Assembly (NCBI GenBank): GCA_023554245.1
Contig: JAMJQL010000178.1
Location: forward strand, 1 to 64,000
Source: Gemmatimonadota bacterium
Lineage (GTDB): Bacteria; Gemmatimonadota; Gemmatimonadetes; Palauibacterales; Palauibacteraceae
Direction: 5' to 3'
Length of the DNA: 64,000 nucleotides
This document shows positions 48,592-59,245 of the stretch, piece by piece (within the stretch, counting starts at the first letter, position 1; each line of letters opens with the position of its first letter). Under the pieces are notes generated by a model. It saw only the letters and a list, made by a program, of their open reading frames with translations. It did no database searches and was not told the origin of the DNA. The position numbers were made by a program, and so were the translations under genes.

Positions 48592-49311
48592 CTAATCGTC
48601 CTCGTCGTCAGCCGTTCCCTCGAGGTCGGCGAATTCCGGCGGAAGCTCCTTCTCGTCGTAATAATCCAGCTTGTGCAGAGGCATCACTACGCTCGACAGA
48701 ATGTTCAGGACGTGCGCGGCGATCCGCTTGTAGAACCGGGCGCCCATGACGACCGCCGTCGCGTCGCGGGCTCCGTAGTCACTCGCTGCGACCCTTGCCA
48801 CGAGCATGTCGCACCGGTGTGTCAGACTTCGGCCCTCCCGGATCAGGTCCAGCGCCCGTTCCCGATCCGACGCCACGAACACCTCTCTGCTCTGGACGAA
48901 CGACTGTTCGACGCCCTCACGGATGGCCTGCAACTCAGCCACGAACTCGTCGTCGGGCAGCGGAAGCGGATGATACTGCCTGACTTCGGCGAGGTTCTTC
49001 GCATAGTCGCCGATCCGCTCCACATCCTTGACGAGGCTGACCAGCAGAAGGCAGTAGGGGAGAGAGGGAGTTGAGCCGGAGAGCGAAAGGTGCGCGATCA
49101 CCTGTTTGCGGATTCTGCGCTCCAGCTTGTTCACCTGGATATCGCGCTGGTACAGGCTGTTGCTGTCCGAGGGCGATACCACTCCACCGAAGAAGATCTC
49201 GCCAGCCTGTATCGTCATCTCGTACGTCAGGTTCAACATCGCCGCGAAGTTCTTTCCCATCTCCTGCAGCGGCTGGTCGGATCGAAACAGCGAGATCAGT
49301 TCCTTCAGCAT
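48592..49311 (-). CDS. PhoU-domain protein
   Basis: 239 residues, all helical. Two PhoU-type three-helix bundles: LYQRDIQVNKLERRIRKQV, then LVSLVKDVERIGDYAKNLAEV (the E/D-x3-D metal-binding motif ERIGDYAKN). The downstream position after a Na/phosphate cotransporter gene (13 bp gap) suggests it modulates phosphate uptake by that transporter. The acidic C-terminus (GTADDEDD) is probably disordered. Confidence 0.85.
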   Translation of the reverse strand: MLKELISLFRSDQPLQEMGKNFAAMLNLTYEMTIQAGEIFFGGVVSPSDSNSLYQRDIQVNKLERRIRKQVIAHLSLSGSTPSLPYCLLLVSLVKDVERIGDYAKNLAEVRQYHPLPLPDDEFVAELQAIREGVEQSFVQSREVFVASDRERALDLIREGRSLTHRCDMLVARVAASDYGARDATAVVMGARFYKRIAAHVLNILSSVVMPLHKLDYYDEKELPPEFADLEGTADDEDD

Positions 49312-49324
49312 GCTGTCCCCGGCT

Positions 49325-50497
49325 TCAGTTGAGTAGGTGATTGAGCCCCGCGAACAGCAGCGGCACTCCGTAGAACAATGCGAGCACGTAAATCAGCGCC
49401 CACCTGCGCGATTCCACCGCAATGGACGCCAGCTTCCTCGCGGCGTTCAGCGGGATCTCCCGGATCCTCGGAATCGGGTAAATAAAGAGAGTCGCCGAGA
49501 GGTTGAACAGGAAGTGAACGAGGGCGATCGTGATCCCCCACCGCGCGTTCGGGCCGGTCGCCGCAAGTGCCGCGAGAGCGGCCGTGATGGTCGTACCGAT
49601 GTTGGCGCCAATGGTGATCGGGAAGGCCTGCTCGAGGGTGATCAGGCCGGCTCCAGCGAGGGGCACGAGGAGCGACGTCGTGATCGAGCTCGACTGCACC
49701 ATGACGGTGACCACGATCCCGACGACGATCGCGAAGGCCGGCGCCTTGTACAGGCCACGGGACACGATCGTCTCTACCCGGGCCTGCATGAAGCTGCGCA
49801 TGGTCTTCACGAGCAGCATCAGGGCCAGGTAAATCAGGAGGCCGGAGACCAGAATCAGCGCCACGGCCGCCAGGCGATCGGTCGGCAGGATGGCCTGAAG
49901 CACATCCTTGATGGGTGCGACGGTAGCCTTCAGAGCTCCCTTCAGCGGACTGTCGTATTCGACGCCCCCGATGCCCGTCAGCTTTCCGGACAGCCAGGTC
50001 GCGGACTTCTGCAGGTAGCCGGTCGCCATCTCCAGCGGAAGAAAGATCGCTACCGCCAGGAAGTTGAAGAAGTCGTGGCACGTGGCCACGGCGAATGCCC
50101 GTTCGAATTCCTGACGGCGTCCCATGTGAGCCATCGAGACGAGCGTGTTCGTCACGGTCGTCCCGATGTTGGCGCCCATGACCATCGGGATTGCGTTGGC
50201 CAGCGGGAGAGGATTCGCCGGGGCCGCCACGAGGCCAACGATCAGGGAAGTCGATACAGAGGAGCTCTGCACCAGGGTCGTTGCGAGAACTCCGACCATC
50301 AGCCCCATGAAGGGATTCTCGGTGGCACGGAAGAAGGAGTCGAGCAGCCCGGCTCCCAGCGACTTGAATCCGTCTCCGAGACCGTTGACTCCGACGAGAA
50401 AGACGTAGAGCAACAGAAGTACCAGGGCCGCCCGAACCAGGGGATGGTCCAGGGGGCCACGTTCACGCGGCTCCGGTATGGTCGTCGTCTCAGTCAA
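49325..50497 (-). CDS. Na+/phosphate cotransporter (NptA/YjbB family)
   Basis: 390 residues from TTG 50497. Two inverted Na_Pi_cotrans repeats carry the diagnostic QSSS motifs: TTLVQSSSVSTSLIVG with PMVMGANIGTTVTN, and TVMVQSSSITTSLLVPLAGAG with TIGANIGTTITA. Start is uncertain; an ATG at 50614 adds 39 residues that look non-native. Operon with the PhoU-domain gene. Confidence 0.87.
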   Translation of the reverse strand: MTETTTIPEPRERGPLDHPLVRAALVLLLLYVFLVGVNGLGDGFKSLGAGLLDSFFRATENPFMGLMVGVLATTLVQSSSVSTSLIVGLVAAPANPLPLANAIPMVMGANIGTTVTNTLVSMAHMGRRQEFERAFAVATCHDFFNFLAVAIFLPLEMATGYLQKSATWLSGKLTGIGGVEYDSPLKGALKATVAPIKDVLQAILPTDRLAAVALILVSGLLIYLALMLLVKTMRSFMQARVETIVSRGLYKAPAFAIVVGIVVTVMVQSSSITTSLLVPLAGAGLITLEQAFPITIGANIGTTITAALAALAATGPNARWGITIALVHFLFNLSATLFIYPIPRIREIPLNAARKLASIAVESRRWALIYVLALFYGVPLLFAGLNHLLN

Positions 50498-50674
50498 CCC
50501 GTGTAACCGGATAGAAGGAAGTCCGGCTTGCCTCCGAGTCGTGTCGGCCGAAAGTGCGCCTTGCCGGCAGCAACGCGCAATGGTCCTCAGATAGAGGGGA
50601 TGGCAGCCATGCATGTGGCGGTTTCGGTTCCCCGGACATGTCGCCCGGCCTGCCTGTCAGGTGTCGGAATCCTC

Positions 50675-50985: not shown

Positions 50986-51666
50986 ATGCTTGCGGCAGCC
51001 TTTCTTATGACCGTGGTCGTCGCGCTGGGAGGGTATCACCTCCTCATCGAGCGACCTCGCCGCGCTCGGCTGGAGGTGCAATCCGGCGGCGCTCGTGTGG
51101 GACCGGCTCCGCTCACGGATTGGGTGGGATCGGTACCGGAGGGAATATTCCTCCAGAATGGCTTCACCTGGAGTCGCGTCGTTCCCGATGGAACGGTCGA
51201 AGTCGGCGTACACCCGATGCTCCAGGGCCTCGTCGGGGAGCAGACCCGGTACTCGCTCGCGGAGCCGGGCCAGCACTTCGATCGCGGCGATCCGATCCTC
51301 GAAATAGGGACGGGCGACAAGTCAGCTCGGGTCCGGGCACCTCTCAGCGGTAAGATCACCGCACGCAATCGATTTGCGTCGGGGAGCCTGACCGACCATG
51401 AGGCCGATTCGCTCGATCGTGCCTGGTTGTACCGCGTGCAGCCGGATGACCTCGCGCTTGATGTGCCCTCATGGATGATCGGAACGCCTGCGACGGAGTG
51501 GGCAGGCGACCGCTACGGGAGAATCAGGGAATACCTGCAGCGAGCCGTGGCCGACGGGGAGGTGGGCCTGGCCCTCGCTGACGGAGGCGAGGTACCGGTT
51601 GGCGCTCTGGCGGAACTCGATGCCGACGCCTGGTCCGAATTCGAGGCCCGCTTTCTCCACACCTGA
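50986..51666 (+). CDS. Membrane-anchored GcvH-like (lipoyl-fold) protein, paralog 1
   Basis: 226 residues. N-terminal helix (LAAAFLMTVVVALGGYHLLI) followed by basic residues, so the domain should face the cytoplasm. Residues 50-145 follow the glycine-cleavage H-protein plan: FTWSRVVPDGTVEVGVHPML, GDPILEIGTGDKSARVRAP and LSGKITARN. Lys112 sits near the usual lipoyl-lysine place, though the spacing to the PLSG turn is one residue shorter than in GcvH. The C-terminus has the ALADGGEVPVG motif shared with two paralogs downstream. GGGGAGGAG Shine-Dalgarno. Confidence 0.72.
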   Translation: MLAAAFLMTVVVALGGYHLLIERPRRARLEVQSGGARVGPAPLTDWVGSVPEGIFLQNGFTWSRVVPDGTVEVGVHPMLQGLVGEQTRYSLAEPGQHFDRGDPILEIGTGDKSARVRAPLSGKITARNRFASGSLTDHEADSLDRAWLYRVQPDDLALDVPSWMIGTPATEWAGDRYGRIREYLQRAVADGEVGLALADGGEVPVGALAELDADAWSEFEARFLHT

Positions 51667-51671
51667 CCTTC

Positions 51672-51715
51672 GGATGCGGGCGGAATCCGGGACGCTCCTC
51701 CTGATTCCGGCATCC
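51672..51715 (+). other. mRNA hairpin between paralog 1 and the ferredoxin gene
   Basis: GGATG...GGAATC pairs with GATTCC...CATCC around a 15-base loop, with a small internal loop. No T run follows, so it is more likely an mRNA processing or stability element than a terminator. Confidence 0.45.
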
Positions 51716-51755
51716 GCCCTCGATCCGCTACGCCCTGATCGATAAGGGGGCTGTG

Positions 51756-52649
51756 ATGAAGAGACGAGATGTCGTTCGGTCGTTGTGTGTCCTGGGCGGA
51801 TCAGTGGCCGTCGGCCGCGATCTGCGAGGGCACTCGAAGGTCGCACGAGCGGCCACATCTCTACCGGAGGCGACGACCGACCCGGCAGCCGAGCCCATGG
51901 CGGTGCTCGTGGACACGACCAAGTGCATGGGTTGCCGCATGTGCGAGCTCGCCTGCGCGAATCAGAACGATCTGCCGGAACCTGAGCCGAAGGTGGACTT
52001 CTCCGTACGGCGACGGACGGATGACACGCGCTTCACCGTCGTGAACCAGTACGAAACCTCGAAGGGGACAGTCAGCGTCAAGACACAGTGCTTCCACTGC
52101 CTGACACCGGCCTGTGCCTCGGCCTGCCTGACTCAGGCCATGCACAAGACCTCTGAGGGTCCTGTGGTCTGGCGAGCGGACAAGTGCATGGGGTGCCGGT
52201 ACTGCATGGTCTCCTGTCCCTTCGACGTGCCGAAGTTCGAGTACTTCAGCGCGAATCCCAGGATCAGGAAGTGTCAGATGTGCTTCGCGCGTCTGGACGA
52301 GGGCGAAGTCCCCGCCTGCGTGGAGGGCTGTCCGGCCGGGGCGACACAATTCGGAACCCGGGCGGAGATGCTCGAGGAAGGCCACAAGAGAATATGGTCG
52401 GAGCCCGACAAGTACGTCCATCGAGTCTGGGGTGAGCACGAAGTCGGTGGAACGAGCTGGCTCTACCTCTCCGCGGTTCCCTTCGAGGAGATCGGACTGC
52501 GATCGGACGTCGGCGTGGAGCCGGTCCCGGCGCTCACCAAAGAATTCCTCTACGCGGTTCCCTTCGTGATCACCCTCGTACCGCCTCTCCTTCTGGGGAT
52601 CAGCGAGGCGACACGGCGTTCGGGCGACGACACGCGAGAGGAGGTGTAG
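51756..52649 (+). CDS. Four-cluster ferredoxin subunit (HybA/PsrB/NrfC-like), Tat-exported
   Basis: 297 residues. N-terminal KRRDVVRSLCVLGG resembles a Tat signal. Cysteine motifs for four [4Fe-4S] clusters: CMGCRMCELAC, CFHCLTPACASAC, CMGCRYCMVSC, and CQMC...CVEGC. A C-terminal membrane helix (VPFVITLVPPLLLGI) is as in HybA. It carries electrons between a membrane NrfD partner and a catalytic subunit, but no molybdopterin or hydrogenase subunit is encoded here. ATG 51756 has AAGGGGG; GTG 51753 is an alternative. Confidence 0.88.
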   Translation: MKRRDVVRSLCVLGGSVAVGRDLRGHSKVARAATSLPEATTDPAAEPMAVLVDTTKCMGCRMCELACANQNDLPEPEPKVDFSVRRRTDDTRFTVVNQYETSKGTVSVKTQCFHCLTPACASACLTQAMHKTSEGPVVWRADKCMGCRYCMVSCPFDVPKFEYFSANPRIRKCQMCFARLDEGEVPACVEGCPAGATQFGTRAEMLEEGHKRIWSEPDKYVHRVWGEHEVGGTSWLYLSAVPFEEIGLRSDVGVEPVPALTKEFLYAVPFVITLVPPLLLGISEATRRSGDDTREEV

Positions 52650-52650
52650 C

Positions 52651-53910
52651 GTGGCGACGATTACTTCGCTCCAGACACGACCTTCCGGCGGACTCCGTGG
52701 ATTCGGTCGCTTCCTGCTCGGTGAGCTCAAGCCCAGGGGGCCGGTGCTGACCCCGTTCAACATCGTGACGGGAGCCCTGATCCTGGTGACGATCGTGCTC
52801 CTGACGATCCGGTTCGCGGGAGGACTGGGCACGATAACGAATCTGTCTCAGGATGTTCCGTGGGGGCTGTGGATCGGATTCGACGTGGTTACAGGGGTCG
52901 CTCTCGCGGGCGGCGCCTATGTCATCACCTTCATGGTCTACATTCTGCGCCTCGAGAAATACGAGCCGATCGTTCGGGTGACCGTTCTCAACGGCTTCCT
53001 CGCGTACGTCTTCTACGCCGGAGCCCTTCTCCTGGACCTGGGTCGTCCATGGAACGTGATCAACCCGATCATCGGCAATTCCTTCGGGGTGAGCTCGGTT
53101 CTATTCCTGGTCGCATGGCATTTCCTCCTCTACATGACGGCGGAGCTGGTGGAGTTCTCACCGGTGATCGCCGAATGGGCCGGTTGGCCGAAGCTTCGAA
53201 AGCGCCTTCACGCTCTGACCCTGGGTGCGGTGGTGCTGGGTATCACGCTTTCGACCCTGCACCAGTCGGGGCTCGGGGCGCTCTACCTGATGGCCGAGAC
53301 GAAGATTCACCCCCTCTGGTACTCGGAGTTCATCCCGATTCTCTTCCTGGTCTCCAGCATCTTCGCCGGACTCTCCATGGTGATCTTCGAGGGAACGATC
53401 ACCCACAAGGTGTTTCGGGATCGGCTGGGCCAGCCGTTGCGCGAGGGGCACGATGGAATCCTGATCGGACTCTCACGCATCTGTGCCGGGACGATGTTCG
53501 CGTATCTCGGCGTCCAGGTGATCACTTTCGTGCACCAGGGCAGGGCCGCATGGATGGGCACGGGCTGGGGCGCCTGGTACCTCCTCGAAATCGTCGGGCT
53601 CGTCGCGTTGCCGGCGGTGCTCTTCTTGGTCGGCGCTCGTCGCAGGGACACGAGGTGGATCAAATCGGCCGCGGTTCTCACGCTGGTCGGGATCATCATC
53701 AATCGACTGAACGTCACGGTCATCGGGTTCCAGTGGAATGCGCCTGTCCGATACGTACCGTCGTGGCAGGAGATCGTAGTTACGCTGGGTGTGATATCCG
53801 CCGAGATCTGGGTGTTCCGATGGGTCATCAACCGGATGCCGGTGCTGGACTTCCACGTTCGGCCGCAGGAAGGACGACCCGCGGACGCCTCTGCCGCCAC
53901 GGCGGCGTGA
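52651..53910 (+). CDS. NrfD/HybB-family membrane quinone-interacting subunit
   Basis: 419 residues, about ten helices. Typical opening: GPVLTPFNIVTGALILVTIVLLTIRFAGGLG and DVPWGLWIGFDVVTGVALAGGAYVI. Like HybB it lacks heme-binding sequence motifs and should exchange electrons with the quinone pool. Excellent Shine-Dalgarno AGGAGGT. Forms a module with the preceding ferredoxin subunit; direction of electron flow is not evident. Confidence 0.88.
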   Translation: MATITSLQTRPSGGLRGFGRFLLGELKPRGPVLTPFNIVTGALILVTIVLLTIRFAGGLGTITNLSQDVPWGLWIGFDVVTGVALAGGAYVITFMVYILRLEKYEPIVRVTVLNGFLAYVFYAGALLLDLGRPWNVINPIIGNSFGVSSVLFLVAWHFLLYMTAELVEFSPVIAEWAGWPKLRKRLHALTLGAVVLGITLSTLHQSGLGALYLMAETKIHPLWYSEFIPILFLVSSIFAGLSMVIFEGTITHKVFRDRLGQPLREGHDGILIGLSRICAGTMFAYLGVQVITFVHQGRAAWMGTGWGAWYLLEIVGLVALPAVLFLVGARRRDTRWIKSAAVLTLVGIIINRLNVTVIGFQWNAPVRYVPSWQEIVVTLGVISAEIWVFRWVINRMPVLDFHVRPQEGRPADASAATAA

Positions 53911-53929
53911 ACGGAAAGGACGCTTCGCC

Positions 53930-54685
53930 ATGTACGCCATGGTTCAGCCCGAGCTGTTCGGAACGAAGGGCATCGAATACATCGTCGTCATCAGTTTCCT
54001 GCTGCTCCTCACGGTCGCCTGGCAACTCATTCGGGCGCCGAAAGTTGCGGTGTCCGAGTCACATCGGGAGAGGGAGGCGGACTGGAGAAGCCTTCTCCGT
54101 GGGGTCGCTCTTCCGGGCAACGGTGTGTTCTTTCACCCGGGGCACTCCTGGGCCCGCATGGCAGGAAGCGACGGAGAGGTCGTGATCGGCTGGGACGATT
54201 TTGCGCGCCGTCTGATCGGCCCGCCCGACCGGATTCAGCTACCGCCCGAAGGCACACGGCTGAGTGCGGGCGGACCGGCATGGACGATTACCGCCGGGGG
54301 GCGGGAACTGCCGATGGTCTCGCCGGTCGACGGGGAGGTGGTTCAGCTCAATGATCGGGTGATCGACGAGCCCTCGACGGCGAGTCGAGACCCGTATGGC
54401 GATGGCTGGTTGATGAGGGTGCGTGTTCCTTCCATCGAGCCTGTGCGTCGAAACCTCCTCACCGGCAGCCTGGCTCGCTCGTGGGCGGAAATGGCGGAGC
54501 GGTCGCTCCAGGGGCTCGCAGTCAGCGCGCCGGAAAGCGCGCTCGGGGCCGTACTGGCCGACGGAGGAGAGCCCCGATTTGGACTGGCACGAACTCTCGC
54601 CCCCGAGGACTGGGAGGAGATCGTGCGCAGCTTCCTGCTCGTCTCCCCGATGGATGTCGCGGAAGACGAGAACGTAAAGGCTTGA
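53930..54685 (+). CDS. Membrane-anchored GcvH-like protein, paralog 2
   Basis: 251 residues. N-terminal membrane helix (EYIVVISFLLLLTVAWQLI) followed by RAPK, giving a cytoplasmic domain. The H-protein-like domain has FFHPGHSWARMAGSDGEVVIGWDDFA, which is close to real GcvH, then MVSPVDGEVVQLN. Arg125 occupies the place of the lipoyl lysine, so lipoylation is not expected. Shared paralog motifs: GWLMRV and VLADGGEPRFG. Directly follows the NrfD gene. Confidence 0.78.
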   Translation: MYAMVQPELFGTKGIEYIVVISFLLLLTVAWQLIRAPKVAVSESHREREADWRSLLRGVALPGNGVFFHPGHSWARMAGSDGEVVIGWDDFARRLIGPPDRIQLPPEGTRLSAGGPAWTITAGGRELPMVSPVDGEVVQLNDRVIDEPSTASRDPYGDGWLMRVRVPSIEPVRRNLLTGSLARSWAEMAERSLQGLAVSAPESALGAVLADGGEPRFGLARTLAPEDWEEIVRSFLLVSPMDVAEDENVKA

Positions 54686-54736
54686 GAAGCGCACCGGCTG
54701 AGTCGTCCGATCGTCCCAGCAGGCGAGGGGGGACCG

Positions 54737-55522
54737 ATGAATCGAAGCGAATCTGCGAATCCGAATTCGGAGCTCCCGTGCGTGTGGTCACTGGCGGGGG
54801 TGCTCGGTATGCATCCGTGCGACCGGGAATACGATTGTGACAGCTGTGAGCTCTATCACGCCCTCTCCGGAGGTCACGCAATCGACGATGAGTCGGCGGT
54901 GCGGTGTCCGAATCTGTCCCAGACTCAGCGGCGTCTGGAGGCCGAAGTGGGCCAGTTTGTCTCGCAACTCCTGGCCGGCTGTCGCCTGGACCTCGGTCGT
55001 TGGTACGGAGGAGACGGTGTGTGGGCTCGTCCAGCAGGCGATTCCAACGAGCTCGAAGTCGGCCTGGTCGGCTGCGTCTGGAGGATACTGGAGCCCGTCG
55101 AGGAAATCGTCGCACCTCGCACCGGAGTCAGCTTCGAAGAGGGCGAGACGTGCGGCTGGCTGCTTCGGTCGGAGCGGGCGATCCCCATTCGTCTTCCGGT
55201 AGGAGGCACCGTTACGGAGGTCAACGAACCGCTGGTGGACGAGATCGGAGGGTCGGGACACGTGGATGGACGCGACAATTGGCTGTTTCGCGTCCGAGCG
55301 GCGGTTCGGCCTTCCGAGGTGCCGAGACTGTTCCGGGGAGAAGATGCGCTGATCTGGCACCTGCGCAGGCTTCGAATCCTGAAGAGTCACATCCGCGGCG
55401 CGCTCGATTCGGATCGCCTCCAGCTGGGTGCCGTCATGGCCGATGGAGGGGAGCCACAGCTGGATCTCGAGAGAGTACTCGGACCGGACCGCTTCGCCGC
55501 CATGATCGACGCCCTGTTCTGA
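54737..55522 (+). CDS. Soluble GcvH-like protein with N-terminal cysteine cluster, paralog 3
   Basis: 261 residues, no membrane helix. The first 40 residues hold Cys15 and then CDREYDCDSCELYH (C-x5-C-x2-C), a possible metal or iron-sulfur site. The GcvH-like part (about 85-185) has VWARPAGDSNELEVGLVG, LLRSERAIPIRLPVGGTVTEVNEPL; Arg147 replaces the lipoyl lysine. Paralog motifs NWLFRV and VMADGGEPQLD are present. Strong Shine-Dalgarno. Unknown function. Confidence 0.72.
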   Translation: MNRSESANPNSELPCVWSLAGVLGMHPCDREYDCDSCELYHALSGGHAIDDESAVRCPNLSQTQRRLEAEVGQFVSQLLAGCRLDLGRWYGGDGVWARPAGDSNELEVGLVGCVWRILEPVEEIVAPRTGVSFEEGETCGWLLRSERAIPIRLPVGGTVTEVNEPLVDEIGGSGHVDGRDNWLFRVRAAVRPSEVPRLFRGEDALIWHLRRLRILKSHIRGALDSDRLQLGAVMADGGEPQLDLERVLGPDRFAAMIDALF

Positions 55523-55573: not shown

Positions 55574-55589
55574 CGGCACGTATTCTGCT
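55574..55589 (+). promoter_or_regulatory. Candidate sigma-54 promoter for the sensor-regulator genes
   Basis: CGGCAC-GTATT-CTGCT against TGGCAC-N5-TTGCW: GG and GC ten bases apart, two mismatches. It lies about 84 bp before the kinase gene. Confidence 0.4.
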
Positions 55590-55672: not shown

Positions 55673-57361
55673 ATGGCCTCCTCGTCCTGGCCCACGAGAA
55701 TCCGCTCGTCCCTGAGCGCTCGCCTCTTCGTCGTGCTCCTCGGCGCCGTACTGCTGATTCTGCTCGGCAATCACCAGATCGCCAACTGGATTCGGACGCG
55801 AGTGGTGCAGGAGGAGGTGCTCTCCGGAGCGGAGCGGGCGAGCACCTTCCTCGAGGGAAGCCTCCTCACCGAGATGGCCGAGAACAACCGGCAGCACATC
55901 GACGACGCGATTCGCAGCCTCGGTGAGGGGCCGGACGTCGTCGGAGTCCGGATCTACAACAAGCGAGGAGAAGTCGCGTTCTCCTCAGACTCGGCTGAGC
56001 TCGGTACCCGCGTCGACATGCAGGCGGAGGCGTGTTTCGCCTGCCATGAGACGGAGCTCCCACTTTCGTCACCCAGCATCGAGGATCTCTCCCAGATCCA
56101 CGTGCACGAAGCCGGCTTTCGAGTACTGCGACTGATTACGCCGATCCGGAACCGTCAGGGATGTGCCGATGCCTGCCACGTGCATGACCAGGATGACACG
56201 GTGCTCGGCGTACTGGATGTCCAGATGTCCCTCGCCAAGACGGATGCGGCGATGCTCCGTGCGGAGCGATCCAGTCTCGCGATCGGAGTGGCAATCGCCC
56301 TGCTGCTAGGAGCCGCCCTGGCCTTCATCGTACACCGTGGTGTGCACCAGCCCACTCGCCAGTTGATCAGGGGTACGGAGGCGCTGGCGGCCGGCGACCT
56401 CGACATCCGTATTCCCGAGGAACGAACCGACGAGCTCGGACAGCTGGCGGACTCCTTCAATCGAATGGCCGGCAGTCTGAAGCAGGCGAACGACGAACTC
56501 AGGCACTGGTCCGACACTCTCGCCGAGAGGGTACGAGACAAGACGCAGGAACTGGCTGCGATACACAAACAGATGGTGCAGGTGGAAAAGACCTCTTCAC
56601 TGGGCAAGATGGCGGCGACCGTCGCCCACGAGCTGAACAATCCGCTCTCCGGGATCCTTACCTGTTCGCGGCTGGTGGCTCGCAAGGTGGAGCGGGAGAT
56701 GCCGCCGGGTGAGGCCCGCGAGAGAACGCTCGAGAACCTCGAGCTGATCCGTTCGGAGTCGGTCCGCTGCGGCAACATCGTGCGCGACCTGCTCACGTAC
56801 GCGCGGGAGGGCACGCACGAGCTGGCCCCGGAGCACCTTCATTCCCTGGTCGATCATGCGATCAGCCTGATGGGCCATCACATGCAGCTCAGCGAGGTGG
56901 AGCTCCAGACGGACCTGGCCCTCGAGGACGACGAAGTCGTCTGCGACGGCGAACAGATCGTCCAGTCTCTGCTGGCGCTGATGATCAACGCGATCGAGGC
57001 GATGCCGGAGGGGGGAAGTCTCACTCTGACCACGGGTTCCGATCCGACCGACGACCGCTTCGTGCGACTCGGCGTAGCGGATATCGGCTCCGGCATTCCA
57101 CCCGAAGTCAGGGACCGCATCTTCGATCCCTTCTTCAGCACGAAGAACGAAACCAAGGGTGTCGGGCTCGGTCTGGCCGTCGTATTCGGAATCGTTCGCC
57201 GGCATGGGGGAGAGATTCTGGTCGATTCGGCACCCGGCAAGGGGACCACCTTCACGCTGCGGCTGCCCAGGCAGCCCACCCGGCCCTACCGGCCGGAATT
57301 CGAATCGGTCGCTGTCGCAGCCGGCAGCGGTACGGCCGCGAGGAGATCTGATGAGTCATAG
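55673..57361 (+). CDS. Sensor histidine kinase with two c-type heme motifs in its periplasmic domain
   Basis: 562 residues. Membrane helix 1 (VVLLGAVLLILLG), periplasmic sensor (about 45-200) with CFACH at 121-125 and CADACH at 164-169, helix 2 (AIGVAIALLLGAALAFIVH), HAMP domain, phosphoacceptor VAHELNNPL (His319) and ATPase boxes NAIEA, DIGSGIPPE, FSTKNETKGVGLGLAV. The CxxCH and CxxxCH motifs suggest covalent heme, so redox or gas sensing is likely. Overlaps its response regulator by 11 bp, which argues they are partners. Confidence 0.9.
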   Translation: MASSSWPTRIRSSLSARLFVVLLGAVLLILLGNHQIANWIRTRVVQEEVLSGAERASTFLEGSLLTEMAENNRQHIDDAIRSLGEGPDVVGVRIYNKRGEVAFSSDSAELGTRVDMQAEACFACHETELPLSSPSIEDLSQIHVHEAGFRVLRLITPIRNRQGCADACHVHDQDDTVLGVLDVQMSLAKTDAAMLRAERSSLAIGVAIALLLGAALAFIVHRGVHQPTRQLIRGTEALAAGDLDIRIPEERTDELGQLADSFNRMAGSLKQANDELRHWSDTLAERVRDKTQELAAIHKQMVQVEKTSSLGKMAATVAHELNNPLSGILTCSRLVARKVEREMPPGEARERTLENLELIRSESVRCGNIVRDLLTYAREGTHELAPEHLHSLVDHAISLMGHHMQLSEVELQTDLALEDDEVVCDGEQIVQSLLALMINAIEAMPEGGSLTLTTGSDPTDDRFVRLGVADIGSGIPPEVRDRIFDPFFSTKNETKGVGLGLAVVFGIVRRHGGEILVDSAPGKGTTFTLRLPRQPTRPYRPEFESVAVAAGSGTAARRSDES

Positions 57362-58697
57362 AAAGCCACGAATCATGATCGTGGACGATGAACGTTCCGT
57401 GAGGGAATCGCTCAGAGAGTGGTTCCTCGAGGACGGATTCGAAGTCGTCACGGCGGAAGACGGTCTGGACGCCTTGAAGAAGCTCGATTCGGACCCCTTC
57501 GACCTCCTGGTCGTGGATCTCAAGATGCCCCGAATGGACGGAATCAGCCTTCAACGCAGACTGCGCGAGACCCATCCCGACTTGACGATCATCATTCTGA
57601 CGGCTTTCGCCTCGGTCGAGACCGCCGTCGAGGCGCTCAAGCTCGGGGCTTTCGACTATGTGACGAAACCGGTGGATCCGGACGAGCTCAGCCATACGGT
57701 CAGGCGGGCTCTGGAGCGGAAGCAGCTCACCGATGAAAACGCACGGTTGCGTGACAAGGTCACCCAGCTGGCGACGGCGGCTCCCATCGTGGGAAGCAGT
57801 CGTGGCATGGAGCGAGTGATGGAACTGGTGGGAACGGTCGCGGAGACGGATGCGAGCGTCGTGATCCGCGGAGAGAGCGGCACCGGCAAGGAGCTGATTG
57901 CCCGCGCGATCCACGGAGCCAGCCCGAGACGGTTCTTTCCGATCGTGGCGGTCAACTGCGGAGCGATTCCGGAGACGCTGCTCGAAAGCGAGCTCTTTGG
58001 CCACGAAAAAGGCGCGTTTACCGGGGCGCACTATCGAAGGAAGGGGAAGCTGGAGCTCGCGAATGGAGGAACCCTGTTCCTGGATGAAATCGGTGAGATC
58101 CCGGCGAAGATGCAGGTCGATCTCCTGCGGGTCCTGGAATCTCATCGATTCAACCGGCTGGGAGGTGCGCAGGAGATCGAATCGGATTTCCGGCTGGTAT
58201 GTGCGACAAACCGTGATCTCGAGGCACTCGTCAAAGAGGGCCGATTCCGGGAAGACCTGTACTACCGGATTCACGTGTTCTCCATAGAGATCCCTCCGCT
58301 CCGCGAGCGCCGGGAAGACATACCGCTGCTCGTGGAGCACTTCGTGGAGAAGCTCTCCCGGTCGATGGGCAAGCCCTCGAAGCAGTTGAGCGAAGAGTCG
58401 GAAGAGCTGCTGCAGGCCTACGACTGGCCTGGCAACGTTCGGGAACTGGAGAACGCGATCGAAAGGGCAATGGTCATCGGAACGACGGACTCGATCCGCC
58501 CGCAGGATCTGCCACTCCAGGTCGAACAGGAAGGGGGCACGCCGCGCGACCGTTCCCTCGAATCACTCGAATCGGAGCACATAGCTCGCGTGCTGCGAGA
58601 GGAATCGGGCAATGTGTCGCAGGCTGCCCGCGTACTGGGGATCGATCGCGGAACTCTCTACAACAAGATCAAGAAATACGGGATCCGATCCGGGTGA
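57351..58697 (+). CDS. NtrC-family sigma-54-dependent response regulator
   Basis: 448 residues. Receiver domain with Asp12/Asp13 and phosphoacceptor Asp56 ([11 protein letters not shown]) and KPVDPDE; AAA+ domain with GESGTGKEL (about 170), the sigma-54-contacting GAFTGA loop (about 222) and LFLDEIGE; C-terminal Fis-type helix-turn-helix [19 protein letters not shown]. Fully equipped to activate sigma-54 promoters. ATG 57351 lies inside the kinase end. Confidence 0.95.
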
Positions 58698-59245
58698 AGC
58701 CGGAGATCCTGCTGGCGCACCTGGGGAGCTTCCGGCCGACGTGGTCGGAAGAACTGCGCCGTCGGGTGGCCGCGGCGACAGACCATTTCGTTCGTGCCGA
58801 GCCCCTCGGTATTGATCTCGCGCCCTTCTATGCCCCCGAACGGCAGCAATATCACGCCACGCTCCTGCTCGCGGAGCTGCTTCGCCATCTGCCCGCCTCG
58901 GGCGGCAGGATCGTCGGAATCACGGCGGAGGATCTGTTCATTCCCGTGCTCACCTTCGTGTTCGGGCAGGCCCAACTGGGAGGTCCGGCCGCCGTCGTGT
59001 CTGTGATGCGTCTGCACACCGAGTTCTATGGTCTGCCCACCGACGAACGACTCCTGGTCGATCGAGCGGTCAAGGAAGTCGTACATGAGCTCGGACATGG
59101 CTTCGGGCTGGTCCATTGCCCGGACAGATCCTGCGTGATGTCGTCCTCCACCTATGTCGAAGACGTCGACCTGAAGAGCGAGCGATTCTGCACGGAATGC
59201 TCGTCCCTGCTGGTTGCCGGGTCCGCGACCACGCCGCATACCTGA
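58694..59245 (+). CDS. amzA: Archaemetzincin-family zinc protease
   Basis: 183 residues. The diagnostic motif HELGHGFGLVHCPDRSCVM (about 132-150) gives the catalytic zinc site plus the first two structural cysteines; CTEC follows for the second zinc. RIVGITAEDLFIPVLTFVFG is the family's central strand. Biological role of bacterial archaemetzincins is unknown. GTG start overlaps the response-regulator stop (GTGA), so its synthesis is coupled to that regulator. Confidence 0.92.
   Translation: MKPEILLAHLGSFRPTWSEELRRRVAAATDHFVRAEPLGIDLAPFYAPERQQYHATLLLAELLRHLPASGGRIVGITAEDLFIPVLTFVFGQAQLGGPAAVVSVMRLHTEFYGLPTDERLLVDRAVKEVVHELGHGFGLVHCPDRSCVMSSSTYVEDVDLKSERFCTECSSLLVAGSATTPHT

Follow-up and report, generated by a model that had tools for sequence, protein, structure and literature searches.

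Three GcvH-fold proteins without the lipoyl lysine in a conserved redox and two-component gene set of a Gemmatimonadota bacterium

We wanted to understand what three proteins resembling GcvH, the H-protein of the glycine cleavage system, might do in an operon that otherwise encodes membrane redox and signalling components. The window, by which we mean the whole stretch of DNA analysed, comprises 64,000 nucleotides of contig JAMJQL010000178.1 from a Gemmatimonadota bacterium (assembly GCA_023554245.1). The three open reading frames, called P1, P2 and P3, are real at the coordinates given here, and each has a good ribosome-binding site. The features of the operon are as follows.

50986-51666, plus strand: P1, with an N-terminal membrane anchor, a GcvH-fold domain and a C-terminal DGG extension (Pfam GCV_H 35.1 bits; orthologs)
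51756-52649, plus strand: periplasmic iron-sulfur (FeS) subunit with a Tat-like signal, HmcB/HybA-like (NCBIfam HmcB and HybA; Pfam Fer4_11)
52651-53910, plus strand: NrfD-type integral membrane subunit, HmcC/HybB-like (Pfam NrfD 56.9 bits; NCBIfam HmcC 398.1 bits, cut-off 550)
53930-54685, plus strand: P2, with an N-terminal membrane anchor (GTKGIEY...), a GcvH-fold domain and a DGG extension (Pfam GCV_H 61.2 bits; AlphaFold; Foldseek)
54737-55522, plus strand: P3, soluble, with an N-terminal cysteine motif, a GcvH-fold domain and a DGG extension (Pfam GCV_H 22.6 bits; AlphaFold)
55574-55589, plus strand: possible, weak sigma54 -24/-12 promoter (CGGCACGTATTCTGCT) in the P3-kinase intergenic gap (consensus scan)
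55673-57361, plus strand: membrane histidine kinase with a diheme-type periplasmic sensor (CFACH, CADACH), HAMP, HisKA and HATPase (Pfam; haem motifs)
57351-58697, plus strand: NtrC-type response regulator with REC, sigma54 AAA+ and Fis HTH domains (Pfam; NCBIfam)
58694-59245, plus strand: M54 archaemetzincin-like peptidase (Pfam Peptidase_M54 92.2 bits), overlapping the regulator stop by 4 bases

The gene order is thus P1, Tat FeS subunit, NrfD, P2, P3, diheme kinase, sigma54 regulator and M54 peptidase. Gaps between the genes do not exceed about 150 bases and the last two junctions overlap, the likely ATG start of the regulator lying within the end of the kinase gene. On the minus strand, divergent from the operon, the window carries PhoU-like and Na/Pi-cotransporter-like genes (48592-50614).

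All three proteins exceeded the Pfam GCV_H cut-off of 22.2 bits, P3 barely. They scored far under the cut-off of 115.85 bits of TIGR00527, the NCBI GcvH equivalog (P1 23.4, P2 47.9 and P3 15.2 bits). To locate the lipoyl site we used two alignments. In a phmmer alignment lipoyl K64 of the E. coli H-protein stood opposite D111 of P1, with the hairpin ungapped. The family alignment was built with an iterated profile from 201 GcvH-domain sequences, taken from the relative loci and the window and including the genome's own true GcvH, and it placed the lipoyl column at D111 in P1, G124 in P2 and E146 in P3. An earlier note had recognised three GcvH-like proteins without the lipoyl lysine, and Pfam GCV_H, the alignment and the lipoyl column all confirm this. 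The residues that it had set at the lipoyl position (Lys112 of P1, Arg125 of P2 and Arg147 of P3) are each one residue beyond it.

Among 186 distinct non-canonical relatives from about ten phyla, 19 carried a lysine in the lipoyl column, and none of the 186 had the lipoylation context ExVK(A/S/T), with Glu at -3 and Ala, Ser or Thr at +1. In the control alignment EAVKA was present in 13/13 recognised canonical GcvH sequences, while the other 9 rows are divergent proteins, receiver-GcvH among them. This genome also encodes a true GcvH (EAVKAVSD) on a different contig, and a gene of the lipoate-ligase family lies approximately 4 kb from that gcvH.

We then inspected AlphaFold models of P2 and P3, built from alignments of loci-derived relatives. 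The P2 model (pLDDT 84.4) had strands at 116-122 and 125-130 with G124 in the turn. The P3 model (pLDDT 77.8) had strands at 138-144 and 147-152 with the turn at 145-146, and its N-terminus was of low confidence. Thus in both models the lipoyl-equivalent residue, checked by structure prediction as the note had proposed, sits in the hairpin turn and is not a lysine. In Foldseek comparisons of the P2 model with solved H-proteins, TM scores normalised to target length were 0.81-0.90 for most and rmsd values mostly 1.6-2.5 Å; the best match reached TM 0.90 at about 1.6 Å.

We considered whether lipoylation might take place after all, at a lysine shifted by one residue. K112 of P1 adjoins the site, and a lysine does stand in the lipoyl column of those 19 relatives. 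However, neither P2 nor P3 has a lysine at or beside the site, the lipoylation context occurs in no relative, and the ligase-family gene is located near the true gcvH. In P1 relatives K112 is replaced by other residues in most cases, mostly R or H, and therefore a shifted site there is unlikely; we regard this explanation as very improbable. That P1-P3 are decaying gcvH duplicates is hardly credible: the loss of the catalytic lysine is the only point in favour of decay, while the frames are open, the gene order is kept and residues are strongly conserved across phyla. As the lysine is absent from P1-P3 and from the large majority of the 186 relatives, and the 19 that bear one have no lipoylation context, the sequences give good support to the view that P1, P2 and P3 use the GcvH fold without lipoate.

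The position following the lipoyl site was often basic. It was R, K or H in 36/38 P1-type sequences and R or K in 80/118 of the P2 type. A basic residue was not common there in P3-type domains, and the idea of an arginine-tipped hairpin fails to cover P3, because R147 is not conserved. What P3 does conserve is an N-terminal C-x12-C-x5-C-x2-C motif (C15, C28, C34 and C37), invariant in 28/28 aligned P3 sequences.

The note had also read shared motifs as a sign of duplication. The three proteins do share a C-terminal DGG motif and are paralogous, but the tree and the conserved operon indicate ancient families that extend across phyla and not a local duplication. In the GcvH-domain tree, where several deep branches were weakly supported, 23/27 P3-type sequences formed one clade (support 0.85), the P1 of the window grouped with P1-type and nine receiver-GcvH sequences (support 0.93), and the P2 type was the largest group. 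From this tree and the shared gene order, the P1, P2 and P3 paralogs appear older than the phylum.

We assessed how widely the operon is conserved. A scan of named genomes gave at least 565 confirmed relatives. A search of viral contigs yielded none. The best 79 loci came from Desulfobacterota/Syntrophus, Acidobacteriota, Rokubacteria, Ignavibacteria/Bacteroidetes, Nitrospinae, Nitrospirae, Krumholzibacteria and others; nearly all of them derive from metagenome-assembled genomes, so individual organism names may be incorrect. The operon itself was conserved in Gemmatimonadota, Desulfobacterota, Acidobacteriota, Rokubacteria, Ignavibacteria and others. About 30/149 sampled genomes from the phylum of an acidobacterial locus had a strong match, and about ten of 298 Gemmatimonadota genomes had the module. 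M54 genes above the cut-off were present in 10/10 of these module genomes vs 11 or 12 of the other 288 genomes of the phylum. The M54 archaemetzincin-like gene accompanies the module across genomes (the window, loci L035-L044 and others), overlapping the regulator gene.

In 42 well-covered loci, that is, with 5 kb either side of the GcvH genes, we detected the FeS subunit in 36, NrfD in 35, the haem kinase in 28 and M54 in 23; none of the four was found near true gcvH in 14 control loci. These neighbours were not selected for, because the loci were retrieved with P2 alone. Two haem motifs were present in 53/56 relative kinases. NrfD was undetected nearby, despite GcvH genes, in L080, L100, L107, L113, L118, L120 and L133. 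Apparent NrfD-GcvH fusions (L072, L079, L101 and similar) turned out to be open frames that overlap the NrfD gene out of frame; they were left out of the count, and no genuine fusion was found in the relative loci. In L098 (8971-10242) a single open reading frame encodes two tandem GcvH domains, both without the lipoyl lysine.

The redox part of the operon resembles known modules. The FeS subunit scored 316.8 bits against HmcB (cut-off 420) and 203.8 bits against HybA, and its 16 cysteines, spaced as for four clusters, are expected to bind four [4Fe-4S]; its C-terminal tail is hydrophobic. Its clusters would face the periplasm, because it is exported. The NrfD-type protein gave no phmmer match to solved structures. 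An HmcA-like multihaem cytochrome is absent, the kinase being the only open reading frame of the window with at least two haem motifs, and when BLAST clusters of unannotated frames from the loci were read by eye, no catalytic subunit such as a molybdopterin enzyme or HdrD was recognised as recurring. In some Gemmatimonadota (L036, L057, L059 and L073) frames for multihaem cytochromes, with as many as 21 CxxCH, border the module, and three of these loci have cytochrome b-like and Rieske-like frames nearby.

Given this neighbourhood, P1-P3 might serve solely in the structure or assembly of an Hmc/Hyb-like quinone:cytochrome redox complex, with the kinase and regulator controlling only transcription of the operon. 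The constant FeS and NrfD neighbours and the membrane anchors of P1 and P2 agree with this, and so do the sigma54-like sites before GcvH genes, which exceeded background (28/192 vs about 7.5 expected). In this genome rpoN is present; the consensus scan found no sigma54 site upstream of P1 in the window, and sites similar to the one between P3 and the kinase gene precede the kinase in three other Gemmatimonadota loci. A purely structural role leaves the conserved cysteine motif of P3 unexplained, and it is opposed by fusions that tie the GcvH domain to phosphorylation. We consider it rather unlikely, if worth keeping in mind.

These receiver-GcvH fusions, with phospho-acceptor motifs, occur in L045-L052, L064 and L070, several of which are laid out as FeS subunit, NrfD, 13-haem cytochrome, haem kinase and two REC-GcvH genes. 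The P1-like fusion consists of a membrane anchor, REC (Asp and Lys motifs; TDLKMP, KPF-type), GcvH and a tail. Given this architecture, the GcvH domain is probably cytoplasmic and tied to phosphorylation. In haem kinases of this second layout (L045:7245-9122, L046:11561-13438 and relatives) the ATPase domain is interrupted by a cysteine-rich insertion resembling a zinc ribbon.

P3 could instead be an electron carrier, with a four-Cys Fe-S cluster shuttling electrons between the cytoplasm and the quinone module in the membrane, and the GcvH folds serving as docking partners. The invariant cysteine motif would suit such a role, as would a similar small cysteine-rich frame in eight loci of other lineages. 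On the other hand, the cysteine region is of low confidence in the AlphaFold model, the cysteines could equally form a zinc site, and the FeS subunit has its clusters on the periplasmic side. We judge this improbable. The small frame (CPYLKEVVMLYC..., at L083:2985-3299 and in seven other loci) lies near the module, mostly in loci of Acidobacteria type, and resembles the P3 cysteine motif.

We lean, by a little, towards P1-P3 being cofactor-free cytoplasmic docking or regulatory subunits of a membrane redox complex, coupled to the haem-sensing two-component system. The membrane anchors of P1 and P2 would hold them next to the NrfD subunit, and their GcvH domains would lie on the cytoplasmic side. 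The former lipoate hairpin, now often arginine-tipped, may have become a protein-docking surface, and the four cysteines of P3 may bind a metal or Fe-S centre. Together the subunits could form a cytoplasmic cap linking the two-component system to the membrane complex's redox or occupancy state, and in the receiver-GcvH lineages this link would become phosphorylation-dependent. The note's suggestion of a structural or sensory subunit is consistent with the operon context and the receiver-GcvH fusions, and we retain it as an inference. A more specific proposal, which we put forward tentatively, is that the cofactor-free GcvH domains act as regulatory effectors docking on the NrfD-type quinone complex under the haem-sensing kinase, and that some lineages switch docking by receiver phosphorylation. 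If true, this would be a new kind of respiratory signalling complex, in which electron flow is sensed and tuned after translation.

The operon unites a quinone/iron-sulfur module, a cofactor-less carrier fold, a haem-sensing sigma54 two-component system and an M54 peptidase. As its relatives occur in hundreds of genome stretches from several phyla, it may be a means, so far unrecognised, by which bacteria sense or control respiratory electron flow. A review of NrfD-like subunits makes no mention of GcvH or glycine cleavage (PMC8076601), and we found no paper in the openly searchable literature that treats GcvH together with NrfD or describes this gene set. The gene set is widespread in bacteria and, provisionally, appears to be undescribed.

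LbpA of sHdr sulfur oxidation, encoded beside hdr genes, has a strictly conserved lipoyl lysine and two cysteines (PMC6067878). Like P1-P3 it is a GcvH-derived protein within a redox gene cluster; unlike LbpA, P1-P3 are missing the lysine. Neither the window operon (Pfam/NCBIfam) nor the recurring unannotated frames of the loci (BLAST clusters) yielded a recognisable hdr-like gene. The FeS and NrfD-type genes best resemble the HmcB/HmcC and HybA/HybB modules. The operon differs from Hmc in scoring below the HmcB/HmcC equivalog cut-offs and in having no recognised catalytic subunit, with GcvH-fold and two-component genes instead. The barrel-sandwich domains of NqrA and RnfC have a lipoyl-like fold that carries no modification, and they lie on the cytoplasmic side of a redox complex in the membrane. 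Profile matches of our proteins to NqrA were weak (E 0.63-0.92), and NqrA/RnfC belong to another family, GcvH being much closer. With GcvH P1-P3 share the fold (TM up to 0.90 for P2) and pass the Pfam cut-off, but they have no lipoyl lysine, carry an extra anchor or Cys motif and a DGG tail, and keep other neighbours. Pfam counts their relatives as GcvH despite the missing lysine, so genomes may be wrongly credited with extra H-proteins. In summary, an ancient carrier of an enzyme cofactor has apparently been recruited, without that cofactor, into a redox or signalling complex.
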